A stretch of 57,352 nucleotides of DNA from Coriobacteriia bacterium (GTDB lineage Bacteria; Actinomycetota; Coriobacteriia; Anaerosomatales; SLCP01), in assembly GCA_019429145.1 (NCBI GenBank), contig JAHYJI010000005.1, positions 1 through 57,352 on the forward strand. Reading direction: 5' to 3'. Positions 26,727 to 37,875 of this stretch are shown piece by piece. Position 1 is the stretch's first letter. Each line of letters starts with the position of its first letter. Position numbers and translations under genes: made by a program. Below the pieces are notes generated by a model. The model was given only the letters and a program-made list of their open reading frames with translations, did not search any database and had not been told where the DNA came from.

Positions 26727-27455
26727 TTGACTGATACGTGGAGCAAGGCCGACCTTCACATCCACAGCGACTTCAGTGACGGTCTGGCCACCATCCCCGA
26801 GATCATGCAGCACGTGCAGGACAACACCGATCTCTCTGTCATCGCCATCACCGACCACAACACCATCGAGGGCGCATTGCTCGCGAAATCACTCGAGCAC
26901 GAGTACGACCTCGAGGTCGTCGTGGGCGAGGAGATCTCGACGAAGTCGGGCCACGTGATCGGGCTCTTTCTCGAGGAGCATATCCCTGCCGGTATGACGG
27001 TCGCCGAGACCATCGCGGCTATCAGCGAGCAGGGCGGCGTCGCGATGATCCCTCACCCCTTCTCCGCACAGGGCGTCTTCGGCCCGTTCGGCGTCAAGGG
27101 GTTCGGCGCGGCACTGAACGAACTCGCATTCCAGGCCCTCGAAGTCTACAACTCGATGCCATTCCTCGTGTTCGCCAACCGCGTGGCGGCCAAGGTCTTC
27201 GCCGGGGGCCAGGGCATCGCGGCGACCGGCGGCTCGGACGCTCACGTCCTCCAGGGTATCGGCAAGGGTTACACGGTCTTCCGTGGCTCCACGACTGCGA
27301 ATCTGCGCTCGAGCATCGACGCGCTCGAGACGAGGGCCGAGACGGGCAAGGGCGGACTCGCGATCGCACTGCGTTACGCGTACACGTTCCCGCGCATCAG
27401 GCGCCAGCGAGAGTGGAACCGCGCGGTGTGCAAGCCGCAGCGCGTCAGCGCGTAG
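26727..27455 (+). CDS. PHP-domain metal-dependent phosphoesterase
   Basis: The 242-aa product has the PHP metal-ligand set: DLHIHSDFSDG near the N-terminus, ITDHNTIEGA, VVGEEIST, IPHPF and GGSDAH. Relatives such as YciV/TrpH hydrolyse 3',5'-bisphosphonucleotides or short RNA 5' ends, while others are histidinol phosphatases. The substrate here is not certain. The TTG 26727 start has GAGAGGGG upstream, and the reading frame further upstream includes the intergenic promoter region. It is separate from the aminotransferase and carries its own sigma-54-type promoter. Its 3' end overlaps the convergent minus-strand gene by 11 bases. Confidence 0.85.
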   Translation: MTDTWSKADLHIHSDFSDGLATIPEIMQHVQDNTDLSVIAITDHNTIEGALLAKSLEHEYDLEVVVGEEISTKSGHVIGLFLEEHIPAGMTVAETIAAISEQGGVAMIPHPFSAQGVFGPFGVKGFGAALNELAFQALEVYNSMPFLVFANRVAAKVFAGGQGIAATGGSDAHVLQGIGKGYTVFRGSTTANLRSSIDALETRAETGKGGLAIALRYAYTFPRIRRQREWNRAVCKPQRVSA

Positions 27456-28683
27456 CCGCCACACCGGTTCCCGGCGCGCCACCGGCCGCCTCTTCGATGC
27501 CTGCCGCCAGCACTTCAGCGAACACCGGGTCGTCGCCCCAGGGTGCGATATGCACTACGCGCACTTTCTCGGGCACGCGAGCATCTCGCGCCGCTGCCGG
27601 CAGATCGAGCAGCGTCTGCAGATCGGCGAAGGGGTGGCACGCCGGAACGACCAGGATGCGGTCGCATCCGAGAGCTGCGAGATGCCGCACCGTCTCGGTC
27701 ACACCCGGGTCGCGCCACTCGGCGGTGCACACCCGTACGCGGTCGCTCTTGAGCCCCTCCTCCACGAGGAAGAGCCGGACCCTGTTGGCGAACGAGTTCT
27801 CCTGGATGTCGAAGGATCGGTTGACGCGCTCGTACTCACCGGGCTGGCCATGGACGACGAGCGCCACACCCGTGATCTCCGGGTCCGAGCGGACCGCGAG
27901 GGTTCTTCGTGCAACGAGGCGTGCGAGCTCGTCCGAGGCCCAGAGCGAGCGGGTGGAGGAGACCGAGAGTCCCGGGACGGGCACATCAGCTCCCTGTCGC
28001 TCGGCGTTGGCCCGGTATCCCTCCGCGATGTAGGCGCCGGTGACGATCGCGGTGTCGAAGCCGGCCTCGCGTGCTGCGTGCAGTAACCCGTCGAGAGATG
28101 AGCCGTTCCCACAGCGCAACACAAGCGGCCCGGCGAAACGCATCCGGTCGAGACGTGTCTCGACACGTTCTGCGAGTCCCACGACCTGACCGTGCTCGGG
28201 ACTGCGCCCGCCCACCGCACGGTAGCGAGCTTTCTGAGCGGCATAGTGGAAGGGGTACACGCTGAGAGCGGGCTCGGGAAGACCCGCGTCGACGAGGTCG
28301 GCGATCTCTCTCGTCACCTCGCCGGGAGCGTACTCCTCCGCCTCCCCGTCGGCGAGCGCGATCACCAGTGTGCGCGGTGGCGTTGCGACAGGAGGCAGAA
28401 CCGGGAGTTCCTGCTTCGGGCGGACGTAGGCGAGCAGCGAGGCCACGAGGGCGAAGCCGCCCCCGATGGCGGCCATTGCGATGACGCTGGCGATCACAGC
28501 CACTGAGGGCTGGTCGTACACGGCGAGCAGGCGATTGCCGGCAAGCACGCTCAGAGCCATCGACGCGACACCGGCGACCATCACGAGACCCTCACGCCGA
28601 CGGGTGACCACGAGAAGTACGGCGAGAGCAGACCCCGCTCCCAGAGAACCGCCCACCAGCCCGACCCAGAGGAGCGGTGTCAT
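27445..28683 (-). CDS. Membrane-anchored protein with ferrochelatase-like domains
   Basis: The 412-aa product starts with three membrane helices (about 3-95). A soluble region follows that resembles chelatase-superfamily (ferrochelatase/CbiX) folds: VIALADGEAEEYAPGEVTREI starts one lobe, and ALVVHGQPGEYERVNRSFDIQE with VPACHPFADLQTLLD forms the second. The histidines in VVHGQ and CHPF are in places where such enzymes keep catalytic or metal ligands. I cannot tell whether it inserts a metal or only keeps the fold. The start is ATG 28683 with GGAGGGAAG upstream on the minus strand; the longer frame to 28767 would run through the trx operator. Confidence 0.6.
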   Translation of the reverse strand: MTPLLWVGLVGGSLGAGSALAVLLVVTRRREGLVMVAGVASMALSVLAGNRLLAVYDQPSVAVIASVIAMAAIGGGFALVASLLAYVRPKQELPVLPPVATPPRTLVIALADGEAEEYAPGEVTREIADLVDAGLPEPALSVYPFHYAAQKARYRAVGGRSPEHGQVVGLAERVETRLDRMRFAGPLVLRCGNGSSLDGLLHAAREAGFDTAIVTGAYIAEGYRANAERQGADVPVPGLSVSSTRSLWASDELARLVARRTLAVRSDPEITGVALVVHGQPGEYERVNRSFDIQENSFANRVRLFLVEEGLKSDRVRVCTAEWRDPGVTETVRHLAALGCDRILVVPACHPFADLQTLLDLPAAARDARVPEKVRVVHIAPWGDDPVFAEVLAAGIEEAAGGAPGTGVAATR

Positions 28684-28747
28684 CTTCTTCCCTCCGACTA
28701 CACCCCGACGAAGACGATGATACCCGAGCAGGACGGGGCGCGCCGTG

Positions 28748-28777
28748 TTGACCCTGGAATACCCCATGGGGTATAAT
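28748..28777 (+). promoter_or_regulatory. trx promoter with CsoR/CstR-type operator in its spacer
   Basis: TTGACC at 28748-28753 and a perfect TATAAT at 28772-28777 are 18 bases apart. The palindrome ATACCCC-AT-GGGGTAT (28759-28774) sits between them and overlaps the -10, so repressor binding would block RNA polymerase. The same palindrome occurs at two other sites in the window. Confidence 0.85.
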
Positions 28778-28815: not shown

Positions 28816-29142
28816 ATGTCAGAGAAGGTTATCGAGGTCACTGCCGCCCAGTTCGATTCGGAGGTGCTCGATGCGACCGTTCCGGTGGTCGTTGACTTCT
28901 GGGCTCCGTGGTGCGGACCCTGCCGAGTGGTGGCCCCCGAAGTCGAGAAGCTCGCAGAGCGGGCCGATGGCGCGGTGAAGTTCGTCAAGGTCAACATCGA
29001 TGAGAATCGCGATGTCGCCATGAAGTTCAACGTGATGAGCATACCGACGATTGCGAAGTTCGAGCGCGGATCGGTTGTGGCGCAGGCAGTCGGCGCCAAG
29101 GGAGCCGATGCGCTCTCGAAAGAGCTGGGTCTGGGGGTGTAG
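28816..29142 (+). CDS. trxA: Thioredoxin
   Basis: The 108-aa protein has the thioredoxin active site WCGPC at residues 32-36 and the cis-proline region SIPTIAKFERG. It reduces protein disulfides, or sulfur-bound thiols, in the cytosol. ATG 28816 is preceded by GAAGGGA seven bases upstream; an in-frame GTG at 28801 is not better placed. It is the first gene behind a repressible promoter and is followed within four bases by an FmdB-like gene and then a DUF302 gene. Confidence 0.95.
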   Translation: MSEKVIEVTAAQFDSEVLDATVPVVVDFWAPWCGPCRVVAPEVEKLAERADGAVKFVKVNIDENRDVAMKFNVMSIPTIAKFERGSVVAQAVGAKGADALSKELGLGV

Positions 29143-29145
29143 GAG

Positions 29146-29346
29146 TTGCCCTCCTACGACCTGAAGTGTCAGGATTGCGGTACGCGATTCGAGCGATTCT
29201 TCATGCGGTTGATCCGTACCGAGGATCGAGTGTGCCCGTCGTGTGGCTCCACTCGCGTGGTGACGGGACCCGGTGGAGGAGTGGTGGCGGTCGCTCGCAC
29301 GGTACGGAGTGACTCGGGTGCGTGCGGCTCAGGAGGATTCACCTGA
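29146..29346 (+). CDS. FmdB-type zinc-ribbon protein
   Basis: This 66-aa protein opens with MPSYDLKCQDCGTRFE and continues with CPSCG, giving the CxxC-CxxC zinc ribbon of the FmdB/putative regulatory family. The C-terminus is a Gly/Ser-rich tail ending in ACGSGG. The function is unknown; such ribbons often bind metal or nucleic acid. The TTG start at 29146 directly follows AGGAG, which is unusually close. It lies three bases after trxA and is probably co-translated. Confidence 0.75.
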   Translation: MPSYDLKCQDCGTRFERFFMRLIRTEDRVCPSCGSTRVVTGPGGGVVAVARTVRSDSGACGSGGFT

Positions 29347-29390: not shown

Positions 29391-29759
29391 GTGGATCACG
29401 CATACAAGCGAACGAGGACCGGGAGCTTCTCAGAGACCATCGAGGCCGTGGAGCACGCCGTGCGTGCCCGCGGCTTCGTCATCGAGAACAAGTACGACAT
29501 CGGAGGGACGGTGGTCGCCAAGGGATTTGCCATCCGGCCCCTGGTGATCATGGAGGTCAGCCCCGTCGAGGAGGTGGGGAGTCCGCTCTCGCTCGTGCTG
29601 CCGTGTCGCATCAACATCTACGAGGAGGACGGAGCCGTCGTCGTCGCGGCCCTTCGCCCGACGATCTTCGGTGCGATCTACCCGGAGCACCGGCTCGACG
29701 AGCTCGCAAGGGGTATCGAGGAGACGGTCATCGGCATCGTGGATGACGCGACCAGCTGA
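29391..29759 (+). CDS. DUF302-domain protein
   Basis: The 122-aa product has the DUF302 pattern: GSFSETIEAVEHAVRARGFVI, then a strand-rich middle (VVAKGFAIRPLVIMEVSP), then LPCRINIYEEDGAVVVAALRPTIFG. DUF302 proteins are often linked with sulfur metabolism and with CstR- or CsoR-controlled genes; the chemistry is unknown. GTG 29391 has GAGGGGG upstream. It is the third gene of the trx operon and converges with the repressor gene, with nine bases between the two stop codons. Confidence 0.8.
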   Translation: MDHAYKRTRTGSFSETIEAVEHAVRARGFVIENKYDIGGTVVAKGFAIRPLVIMEVSPVEEVGSPLSLVLPCRINIYEEDGAVVVAALRPTIFGAIYPEHRLDELARGIEETVIGIVDDATS

Positions 29760-29768
29760 GAGGCTGCC

Positions 29769-30065
29769 CTACTTCACGCACGATGAGTACTTGAGGAAGA
29801 CGCTGATCGCCTCGTCGATGAGCTCGTCGCGCGATCTCTCCTCATCGTCGATGAGGCAGCGTTTCATCGAGTGGCCGATGATGTGGAGCCCGACCTGGTT
29901 CAGCGCGGACTTCGCGGCCATGATCTGAGTGAGGACGTCTTCGCAGTCCTTTCCCGACTCGATCATGGACTGCAAGCCCCGGATCTGTCCCTCGAGGCGA
30001 CGGAGGCGGTTGAGGATGCGCGTGCGCTCCGCATCTGCGGCGAGCGGGCCTATGCTATCTGTCAT
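29769..30065 (-). CDS. CsoR-family repressor, CstR-like ligand pattern
   Basis: The 98-aa all-helical repressor has GQIRGLQSMIESGKDCEDVLTQI and KSALNQVGLHIIGHSMKRC. Aligned by eye to Mycobacterium CsoR, whose Cu(I) ligands are Cys36, His61 and Cys65, the equivalents are Cys41, Ser66 and Cys70. The middle ligand is therefore lost, with a His at the neighbouring position 65. A C-x-C pattern is what CstR persulfide sensors show, and GKDC also matches my memory of CstR. The start is ATG 30065, with GAGGTG six bases upstream; a GTG at 30074 overlaps that site. It is divergent from the CDF gene across a palindromic operator and likely represses its own promoter. Confidence 0.85.
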   Translation of the reverse strand: MTDSIGPLAADAERTRILNRLRRLEGQIRGLQSMIESGKDCEDVLTQIMAAKSALNQVGLHIIGHSMKRCLIDDEERSRDELIDEAISVFLKYSSCVK

Positions 30066-30092
30066 CGAGTTCACCTCGCACGGTGTGGGGTA

Positions 30093-30120: not shown

Positions 30121-30149
30121 AATATACCCCCCAGGGGTATATTGTGCAA
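30121..30149 (-). promoter_or_regulatory. Repressor promoter with 23-bp operator
   Basis: AATATACCCC (30121-30130) and GGGGTATATT (30134-30143) are perfect ten-base arms around CCA. On the minus strand TTGCAC (30149-30144) and TATATT (30126-30121) are 17 bases apart, placing the operator in the spacer of the repressor's own promoter. The divergent CDF gene starts 18 bases to the right and could be controlled from the same site. Confidence 0.82.
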
Positions 30150-30161
30150 GCGGGAGGTCAC

Positions 30162-31106
30162 GTGGGCTACTCCGCAGGACCCGGTGAGGGCGCTGCTCCG
30201 GATCGCAAGTCGCGCATCCGTCGCATCCTGGTCTTCATCCTTGCGCTGAACCTCGCCGTCGCCCTTGCGAAGCTGGGATGGGGCTACGTGGCGGGATCGG
30301 TGTCGATGGTCGCCGACGGTTTTCACTCTCTGTTCGATGGTGCCTCTAACATCATCGGTCTCGTGGGCCTTGCTCTGGCGGCACGGCCGGCCGACCGGGA
30401 CCATCCCTACGGCCACGGCAAGTACGAGACCTACGCCTCTGCTGCCATCGGCGCGATGCTTGCGTTCGCGGCGTACAGCGTGGGGAGCGCGGCGATCGGG
30501 AGGTTGCTCGAGGGCAGCCCCCCGCCGCGTGTCGATGCCATCGCGTTCGCCGTGATGATCGGTACGCTCGCCGTCAACATCGGCGTTACACTCTACGAGC
30601 GGGCGGTGGGCAAACGTCTGGGCAGCGAGATACTCATCGCCGATGCCAGCCACACCGGAAGCGACGCGCTCGTGAGCATCGGGGTGATCGCCGGATTGAT
30701 CGCGGTCCGTGCCGGGTATCCCATCGCCGACCCGCTCATCGCCCTTGTGGTCGCCGGGGTCATCGCGTACACGGCATTGCGCGTATTCAGACAGGCCACG
30801 GTCACTCTCTCAGACACGGCCCGCATAGACCCCAGACTCATCGCGAACGTGTGCATGGAGGTTCCGGGAGTGCTCGGGTGCCACCGCATCCGGACACGCG
30901 GCTCTGCAGCCGAGGTCTACGTCGATCTGCACATCCAGGTCGACCCGGCGGCGACCGTGACCACCGGGCATGCGGTGGCCGAGGCGGTGGAACGCGTGGT
31001 GTGCCACTCGTTCGAGCCGGTCGTCGATGTGGTCGCACACCTCGAACCCTACGACGCCTACCAGGTTGGCAAGACGGCCAAGGAGATAGATGCAGGACTC
31101 GCTTAA
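30162..31106 (+). CDS. Cation diffusion facilitator (CDF) transporter
   Basis: The 314-aa product has about six membrane helices with the CDF metal-site sequences SVSMVADGFHSLFDGASNIIG (HxxxD, helix 2) and IADASHTGSDALVS (HxxxD, helix 5), then a C-terminal cytosolic domain (about 215-300). Family members export Zn, Fe, Mn, Co or Ni by proton exchange. GTG 30162 has GGGAGGT upstream; GTG 30144 is in frame but touches the operator. Position next to the CsoR-family repressor suggests metal- or sulfur-dependent control. The downstream EamA gene overlaps its end by 17 bases. Confidence 0.9.
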   Translation: MGYSAGPGEGAAPDRKSRIRRILVFILALNLAVALAKLGWGYVAGSVSMVADGFHSLFDGASNIIGLVGLALAARPADRDHPYGHGKYETYASAAIGAMLAFAAYSVGSAAIGRLLEGSPPPRVDAIAFAVMIGTLAVNIGVTLYERAVGKRLGSEILIADASHTGSDALVSIGVIAGLIAVRAGYPIADPLIALVVAGVIAYTALRVFRQATVTLSDTARIDPRLIANVCMEVPGVLGCHRIRTRGSAAEVYVDLHIQVDPAATVTTGHAVAEAVERVVCHSFEPVVDVVAHLEPYDAYQVGKTAKEIDAGLA

Positions 31107-36518: not shown

Positions 36519-36863
36519 ATGGCGCGCGAACGGGACAGGAAAAGGACGGTTCTCGCCGGTCTGTCATTCGGCCTCTTGCTCCTGTTCTCCGTAGCCGCGC
36601 TCCTGCTTTCGCTCGTGCGGTCTGCGCCTGCGGCACCGGCATGGGGCTTGGCACTGATTGTGGGCACGCTGTGTGCCCTGGTGGCTCTGCTTCTGTTAGA
36701 GCCCGGATCGGAGTCCACCGATGCCGATCCCGTGGTATCGTCATGTGCCGCGTGCGGCAATCCCATGCTTGCCGAGTGGCGACTCTGCCCGCACTGCGGG
36801 CAGATGCTGGAATGCGACATGTCCGCACCGATGCAAGGAGATCGCACCCCATGGCTGACCTGA
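36519..36863 (+). CDS. Two-helix membrane protein with C-terminal zinc ribbon
   Basis: The 114-aa product has a basic N-terminus, two membrane helices (about 10-32 and 39-60), an acidic linker and a zinc ribbon: SSCAACGNPMLAEWRLCPHCGQ gives CxxC and CxxC (about 75-97). The function is unknown; the ribbon may bind zinc or copper at the membrane. It begins 41 bases after the strongest sigma-54 site in the window. The following HMA gene starts inside its last 13 bases. Confidence 0.65.
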   Translation: MARERDRKRTVLAGLSFGLLLLFSVAALLLSLVRSAPAAPAWGLALIVGTLCALVALLLLEPGSESTDADPVVSSCAACGNPMLAEWRLCPHCGQMLECDMSAPMQGDRTPWLT

Positions 36864-37075
36864 AGACCGTTCACCTGACGACGACGGGTATGCACTGCGG
36901 CTCGTGCGCGATGCTCATCGACATGACACTCGGGGACCTCGAGGGCGTCTCCGAGGTCAAGACCGACTACGCCTCCGGAGCCACGATGGTTACGTTCGAC
37001 CCCGAGAGGATCTCCGTGGACGATCTCGTTCAGTCCGTCCGATCTGCAGGGTACGAGGCTGCCGTTACGGCGTAG
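36851..37075 (+). CDS. Copper-chaperone-like heavy-metal-associated (HMA) protein
   Basis: The 74-aa ferredoxin-like protein has GMHCGSC (Cys16, Cys19), the copper-binding CxxC motif of CopZ/HMA proteins, followed by GDLEGVSEVKTDYASGATMVTFDPERI, the usual beta-alpha-beta pattern. It would carry Cu(I) in the cytosol. The start is ATG 36851, with AAGGAG ten bases upstream. It overlaps the zinc-ribbon gene and lies just upstream of a CsoR-type operator and ccdA, so it may be in a sigma-54 transcript and partly linked to ccdA. Confidence 0.85.
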   Translation: MADLKTVHLTTTGMHCGSCAMLIDMTLGDLEGVSEVKTDYASGATMVTFDPERISVDDLVQSVRSAGYEAAVTA

Positions 37076-37091
37076 CGGATCGCGCTCGACC

Positions 37092-37120
37092 TTGCCTCGG
37101 GATACCCCGTGGGGTATAAT
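37092..37120 (+). promoter_or_regulatory. ccdA promoter with CsoR/CstR-type operator in its spacer
   Basis: TTGCCT (37092-37097) and TATAAT (37115-37120) are 17 bases apart. The palindrome ATACCCC-GT-GGGGTAT (37102-37117) overlaps the -10, with the same geometry as the trx promoter. Confidence 0.85.
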
Positions 37121-37158: not shown

Positions 37159-37875
37159 ATGGAGATGGGTTTCGCGCTTGCCTTCGCTGCAGGCGTCGTC
37201 TCGTTCCTGTCCCCGTGCGTGCTGCCTCTCATCCCCGGATACCTGTCATTCATGACCGGGATCGCGGTAGGCGACCTCGGTACGGGACGTGCGGCCCGAG
37301 CGGTGATCGGGCCCGCACTGCTCTTCGTGGCAGGATTCTCCGTCGTCTTTACTTCGCTTGGCGCATCCGCGTCGGTCCTGGGATCGTTTCTCGTCGACTA
37401 CCGCGTCGTTCTCGAGCGGGTGGCGGGTGTACTGGTCATCGGGTTCGGTATCCTCATGCTCGGGATCGTGAGGCTCCCGTGGCTCTACGGCGAGGCGCGG
37501 GTCGACATGGGCAAGGCACGTGCCTTCGGCCGGGGAGCGGCGTTTGTCATGGGTGCCGCGTTCGCATTCGGGTGGACGCCCTGTGTCGGACCGGTGCTCG
37601 GCTCGATACTGGCACTGGCGGGTACCACCGCCAGTGTTGGCCAGGGTGCCGCTCTGCTGTTGGTGTACTCCCTCGGTCTCGGTGTTCCGTTCATCGCCAC
37701 TGCGCTGCTTTTCGGAAGCGCGGGTCCGCTGCTTGCCCGCATCAACCGTCACTCCCTGGTCATCAACCGCGTCGCCGGCGTTCTCCTGATCGCCGTCGGC
37801 CTGCTTATCGTGACCGGCAGGCTCTCCGCGCTCGTTGCCGCGTTGAGCTCGGTGCTTCCCGAGGTGGCTCTCTAG
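37159..37875 (+). CDS. ccdA: CcdA-type thiol-disulfide transporter
   Basis: The 238-aa protein has six membrane helices with cysteines in SFLSPCVLPLIPGYLSFMTG (helix 1) and FGWTPCVGPVLGSILALAG (helix 4), the redox pair of CcdA/DsbD-beta proteins. CcdA moves reducing equivalents from cytosolic thioredoxin to extracytoplasmic proteins, for example in cytochrome c maturation. It sits behind its own operator-controlled promoter, matching thioredoxin at 28.8 kb, its likely electron donor. Confidence 0.93.
   Translation: MEMGFALAFAAGVVSFLSPCVLPLIPGYLSFMTGIAVGDLGTGRAARAVIGPALLFVAGFSVVFTSLGASASVLGSFLVDYRVVLERVAGVLVIGFGILMLGIVRLPWLYGEARVDMGKARAFGRGAAFVMGAAFAFGWTPCVGPVLGSILALAGTTASVGQGAALLLVYSLGLGVPFIATALLFGSAGPLLARINRHSLVINRVAGVLLIAVGLLIVTGRLSALVAALSSVLPEVAL

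Follow-up and report, generated by a model that had tools for sequence, protein, structure and literature searches.

The analyzed window is the whole stretch of 57,352 nucleotides of the contig. A gene encoding a CsoR-family repressor of 98 aa (csoR) is located on its reverse strand (gene position 29769–30065). The protein matched PF02583 with 91.5 bits against a curated cut-off of 22.8, which assigns it to the CsoR/RcnR family, and a family search of the whole source genome found this single CsoR-family gene. Translation probably begins at the ATG at 30065, which an AGGTGA-type ribosome site precedes by six bases; this codon was favoured over the listed GTG at 30074 because the latter falls within the ribosome site, and residue numbers are counted from this ATG. 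Cys41, Ser66 and Cys70 occupy the family positions X, Y and Z, and Asp40 is found at position A, directly ahead of the X cysteine. Ser66 is four residues ahead of Cys70 and adjoins His65. The two cysteines, Ser66 and His65 had been pointed out in the preliminary description, and these residues proved to be conserved beyond chance.

A pattern search for TACCCC-N2/3-GGGGTA revealed three palindromes in the window, at positions 28760, 30125 and 37103. One of them forms the predicted operator ATACCCC-CCA-GGGGTAT (30124–30140) between csoR and the divergent gene of a cation diffusion facilitator (CDF) transporter (30162–31106, forward strand; PF01545, 144 bits; TIGR01297, 226 bits). The start of the CDF gene is at 30144 or, more likely, at 30162. 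The predicted csoR promoter (30121–30149, reverse strand) consists of TTGCAC (30149–30144) and TATATT (30126–30121) separated by a 17-base spacer with the operator. A comparable predicted site is found ahead of csoR in other loci of the clade.

The predicted operator ATACCCC-AT-GGGGTAT (28759–28774) overlaps TATAAT (28772–28777; −35 box TTGACC, 28748–28753) and precedes three genes on the forward strand. These encode a thioredoxin with the active site WCGPC (28816–29142; TIGR01068, 114.7 bits with a cut-off of 96.8), an FmdB-family zinc-ribbon protein (29146–29346; TIGR02605, 35.9 bits with a cut-off of 31.3) and a DUF302 protein (29391–29759; PF03625, 23.2 bits, barely above the cut-off of 23). 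The DUF302 gene is kept between trx and csoR in most loci of the clade. A Ferrochelatase/CbiX-like gene with weak PF00762/PF01903 matches (27448–28767, reverse strand) is a conserved divergent neighbour of trx, and it may share the control of the trx operator since the start of its longest ORF falls within this operator.

The predicted operator ATACCCC-GT-GGGGTAT (37102–37117) overlaps TATAAT (37115–37120; −35 box TTGCCT, 37092–37097) and is followed by the gene of a CcdA/DsbD-TM membrane thiol-electron carrier (37159–37875, forward strand; PF02683, 59.5 bits). A gene encoding an HMA-domain metal-binding protein (36851–37075, forward strand; PF00403, 50.6 bits) is located upstream of this operator, and it is therefore not driven from it. 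Profile matches thus confirmed the DUF302, thioredoxin, CcdA and HMA neighbours that had been named earlier, each as described. The suggestion that the HMA chaperone points to copper was not borne out, because the order HMA–operator–ccdA recurs in eight loci, and the HMA gene was rejected as a member of the regulon for the same reason.

A scan of genome contigs yielded 12 close csoR orthologues (61–85% identity over the matched part), mostly from Coriobacteriia, Actinomycetota or Actinobacteria, and further orthologues were obtained from a scan of 40 related genomes. Nearly all relatives contain one CsoR per genome. Tandem proteins with two CsoR domains in one frame were observed at three loci (L197 of genome G021, L198 of G009 and L101 of G017); both halves retain the X and Z cysteines and have Ser or Ala at Y.

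Conservation was evaluated for 44 distinct sequences of the order-level clade. Cysteine is present at both X and Z in 44/44 sequences, and these are the residues that CstR uses (PMC5146963). Position Y is occupied by Ser in 36 sequences and by Ala in the other 8, and position A is Asp or Glu in 39. Neither the His at Y nor the second-shell Tyr at A of copper CsoRs was found in any of the 44, so the clade is without both the first-shell and the second-shell copper features. At position 65, His is found in 35 sequences, Tyr in 8 and Gln in 1, whereas 7 of the 44 deviate at position 61. It had been proposed that His65 might substitute as a copper ligand; given its replacement by Tyr or Gln in 9/44 members, and the fact that position 66 can be Ala, it is no general substitute ligand, and copper sensing through His65 was rejected on conservation. 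Of the 58 relatives examined outside the clade, 40 combine Tyr at A with His at Y, both residues are missing in 16, and the remaining 2 contain the His only; the Tyr never occurs on its own. These counts agree with the published rule that Tyr at A is always accompanied by His at Y (PMC4235346).

The protein also differs from RcnR, which has His at Y and Z where Ser or Ala and Cys are found here, and from FrmR, defined by Pro2, the X cysteine and His at Y, since the window protein has Thr2 and no His at Y. Cysteine at X and Z with a residue other than His at Y, as in CstR, was found in all 44 sequences. In a tree of about 85 columns the window clade held together on a long stem (support 98/94); the CstR of E. 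faecalis was placed elsewhere, on a very long branch, and did not join it. At least four changes of the His/non-His label are needed on the starred branches, and with so few columns and such long branches the tree does not settle descent. The preliminary assignment to a CstR-like type is thus retained as to function, given the two cysteines, the lack of His at Y and of Tyr at A and the sulfur-related regulon, but not as to membership in the demonstrated CstR clade. The case for a protein that functions in the manner of CstR is therefore stronger than the case for a true CstR, and the best reading of the sequences is a CsoR/RcnR-family member that probably works like CstR and forms its own clade.

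The distribution of the sites was then compared with that of the repressor. A total of 71 copies of ATACCCC-N2-GGGGTAT were found in 41 related genomes, the source genome included, and none of its reversed control. Among the 30 genomes with at least 90% completeness and at most 5% contamination, CsoR was found in 28 and the site in 25; the only two without CsoR (G018 and G033) have no site. The genome pattern search found two more strong sites in the source genome, at C41 and C50. Sites at C32, C81 and C104 (loci L002, L007 and L008) and two N3 sites (L010 and L011) were omitted as likely chance. A weaker possible site, TACCCCGACGGGTA, with one weaker arm, is located upstream of a short-chain dehydrogenase (SDR) gene (L001:915-928).

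The catalogue comprised 112 distinct sites, including the N3 sites ahead of csoR. Of these, 90 lie between the −35 and −10 boxes of a promoter of the form TTGnnn-N16-19-TAnnnT whose −10 box falls on the right arm, while with shuffled flanks the number averaged 3.4 and never exceeded 11; because the pattern was picked after inspection of the window promoters and some loci come from near relatives, this count describes a consistent arrangement and not 112 independent events.

In the source genome the sites adjoin csoR and the CDF gene, the trx–fmdB–DUF302 genes, ccdA, an ACR3-like gene (L003) and a ferredoxin–DUF1462 pair (L004). Besides the csoR and trx sites, the tally across genomes includes ccdA (9 loci), ferredoxin and/or DUF1462 (20), rhodanese-thioredoxin (9), ACR3-like transporter (5), HmcB-like Fe-S protein (4), NAD synthase (2) and others (4). 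Family names are based on one profile-scanned member per group, the rest being assigned by tblastn or by reading translations. The rhodanese-thioredoxin loci all belong to relatives, and none was found at a site in the source genome. A cysteine synthase gene (TIGR01139, 395 bits) is divergent from one of the HmcB-like genes (L182). The palindrome ahead of the NAD synthase gene was observed in two related genomes (L106 and L190). Copper CsoRs are also expected to have their site upstream of copA/copZ, and no P-type ATPase was found downstream of, or otherwise adjoining, any catalogued site; the CopA matches near sites are the HMA domains upstream of the ccdA site in the eight loci mentioned above. 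The classical CstR targets SQR, persulfide dioxygenase and TauE were not seen adjoining the sites.

Two groups of these genes contain an in-frame TGA. In the DUF1462 ORFs (for example, L004:1774-2112) it is found at the same place in 19/19 loci, within GGUGPSW, and in the membrane-anchored rhodanese-thioredoxin ORFs (L116:1551-2200 and eight more loci) it is found in 9/9, within UPxC. The genome contains a tRNA-Sec match of 72.1 bits (gathering score 47). A hairpin of seven pairs just after the UGA of the rhodanese-thioredoxin genes is kept in 9/9 sequences, with two pairs changed on both sides, and slid versions fail; since it had been picked by eye from these very sequences before any counting, it is to be taken as a consistent feature and offers no independent test. 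Single-sequence folds after the UGA were not unusual in stability, and no orthologue with a Cys codon that would anchor the reading was found. The UGA is probably read as selenocysteine in both groups. DUF1462 is absent by name from the 2026 inventory of prokaryotic selenoproteins (PMC13188914).

The residue fingerprint, the sites, their position in promoters and the genes downstream can be read directly from the DNA. Since the copper-binding parts are lost and the site-bearing genes handle thiols and sulfur, reactive sulfur rather than copper is the most likely signal. We consider it probable that this two-cysteine repressor senses sulfane sulfur (persulfide or polysulfide) and controls dispersed genes whose products reduce and handle sulfane sulfur and disulfides. 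The regulon is the deciding evidence and supports sulfur more strongly than the fingerprint does. As to the balance of hints drawn up in the preliminary description, the sulfur side is upheld by the fingerprint (two invariant cysteines, with neither His at Y nor Tyr at A) and above all by the comparative regulon, and the copper hints are left unsupported.

The models for this assumption are CstR and ScCsoR. In CstR, the X and Z cysteines react with per- or polysulfide and cross-link the protomers, and the affinity for DNA drops (PMC5480029; PMC9918477). In ScCsoR of Streptomyces coelicolor, both cysteines are needed for sensing sulfane sulfur, persulfidation takes place at Cys37, and the operator has the form ATACC-n6-GGTAT (PMC7533328). 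From the residues and the regulon we infer the binding of the protein to the sites, its inducer and the chemistry of its cysteines as follows. Cys41 and Cys70' would form a redox pair across the protomer interface, and the reduced protein would occupy the predicted ATACCCC-N2/3-GGGGTAT in promoter spacers and block RNA polymerase. Reaction of the pair with sulfane sulfur, or the disulfide or polysulfide bridge that ensues, would release the repressor. The thioredoxin, CcdA, the ferredoxin with the DUF1462 probable selenoprotein and the ACR3-like transporter would then be derepressed, as would the rhodanese-thioredoxin probable selenoproteins and cysteine synthase in relatives.

Several observations count against sulfane sulfur, namely the divergent gene of a metal exporter (CDF), the lack of the classical CstR targets next to the sites, the separate placement from E. 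faecalis CstR in the tree, and the fact that thioredoxin and CcdA would also suit a general disulfide sensor. According to this latter explanation, O2, peroxide or nitroxyl would convert the cysteine pair to a plain disulfide, and the natural signal would be something other than sulfane sulfur. It draws on the disulfide-handling role of thioredoxin and CcdA, on the reaction of S. aureus CstR with HNO as well (PMC5480029), and on TTHA1953, a two-cysteine regulator of Thermus whose DNA binding is lost upon treatment with H2O2 and upon Cu(II)-driven oxidation, NaHS having no such effect (PMC10318464); TTHA1953 is thus a warning that a two-cysteine family member can answer oxidation and not NaHS. 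However, the rhodanese-thioredoxin, HmcB-like Fe-S protein and cysteine synthase in the regulons of relatives point to sulfur, and the characterised relatives in the probable order are anaerobes, the cultured Anaerosomatales (OPB41) reducing sulfur, thiosulfate or Fe(III) (PMC9686372). We therefore regard a disulfide-stress sensor as unlikely.

Much less probable is a sensor of another metal (Zn, Ni or Co) serving the CDF exporter: the CDF gene is divergent from csoR and the operator is common to both in most loci, but five loci (L016, L114, L136, L143 and L149) have no CDF match although csoR and the site remain, Z is Cys rather than the His of RcnR, and Y is not His. Sensing of copper(I), through Cys41/His65/Cys70 or a two-cysteine site, is the least probable, and only slightly behind: the HMA gene, two CPC-type ATPases in the genome and an operator of the copper CsoR type speak for it, and the substitutions at positions 65 and 66, the missing Tyr at A and the absence of P-type ATPases next to the catalogued sites speak against it. 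The operator itself is not decisive, since the copper-sensing CsoR of S. lividans uses ATATACCCCTNAGGGGTATAT (PMC3902906), and it was also rejected as evidence for sulfur because copper CsoRs share this operator type.

When the predicted sulfane-sulfur sensor is compared with known systems, CstR (S. aureus, E. faecalis; PDB 7mq1) shares the CsoR fold family, cysteines at X and Z, a non-His residue at Y (Asn in 7mq1), Asp ahead of the X cysteine and the control of sulfur genes. The window clade differs in its separate position on a long stem, in Ser or Ala at Y, and in its predicted regulon, in which reductive thiol genes and genes of probable selenoproteins are dispersed, whereas the targets of CstR are gathered in a single local cst operon for sulfurtransferases and sulfide oxidation. 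ScCsoR (SCO0620) and YrkD of B. licheniformis are similar in the operator type, autoregulation and a rhodanese gene in the circuit, and ScCsoR also in its two cysteines; however, their circuits oxidise sulfane sulfur by persulfide dioxygenase and SQR, neither of which was seen adjoining the sites here. TTHA1953 of Thermus thermophilus is likewise a two-cysteine CsoR-family repressor of dispersed sulfur genes, including the thioredoxin SoxW, but it governs the Sox oxidation pathway and has a DNA consensus unlike that of the copper CsoR type. Copper CsoRs (S. lividans, G. thermodenitrificans) share the family and the operator type, but contain Tyr-Cys...His...Cys, of which the Tyr and the His are missing in the window clade. 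A protein may thus be misjudged from the name "copper-sensing repressor" or from an operator of the copper type.

Known sulfur sensors of the CsoR family mostly control the oxidation of sulfide and sulfane sulfur. If the proposed reading is true, the conserved regulon, with its thioredoxin, CcdA and probable selenoproteins, would be the reductive equivalent of such control in anaerobes, and the sites would provide a list of candidate sulfane-sulfur enzymes, including the uncharacterised DUF302, DUF1462 and FmdB proteins. We lean, with some reserve, towards the broader view that an independently evolved two-cysteine CsoR runs a genome-wide reductive response to sulfane sulfur in this uncultured-rich anaerobic order of Actinomycetota, and that its effectors may include two kinds of selenoproteins, a DUF1462-domain protein in which a GGU motif is conserved and a rhodanese-thioredoxin that is anchored in the membrane and contains UPxC.
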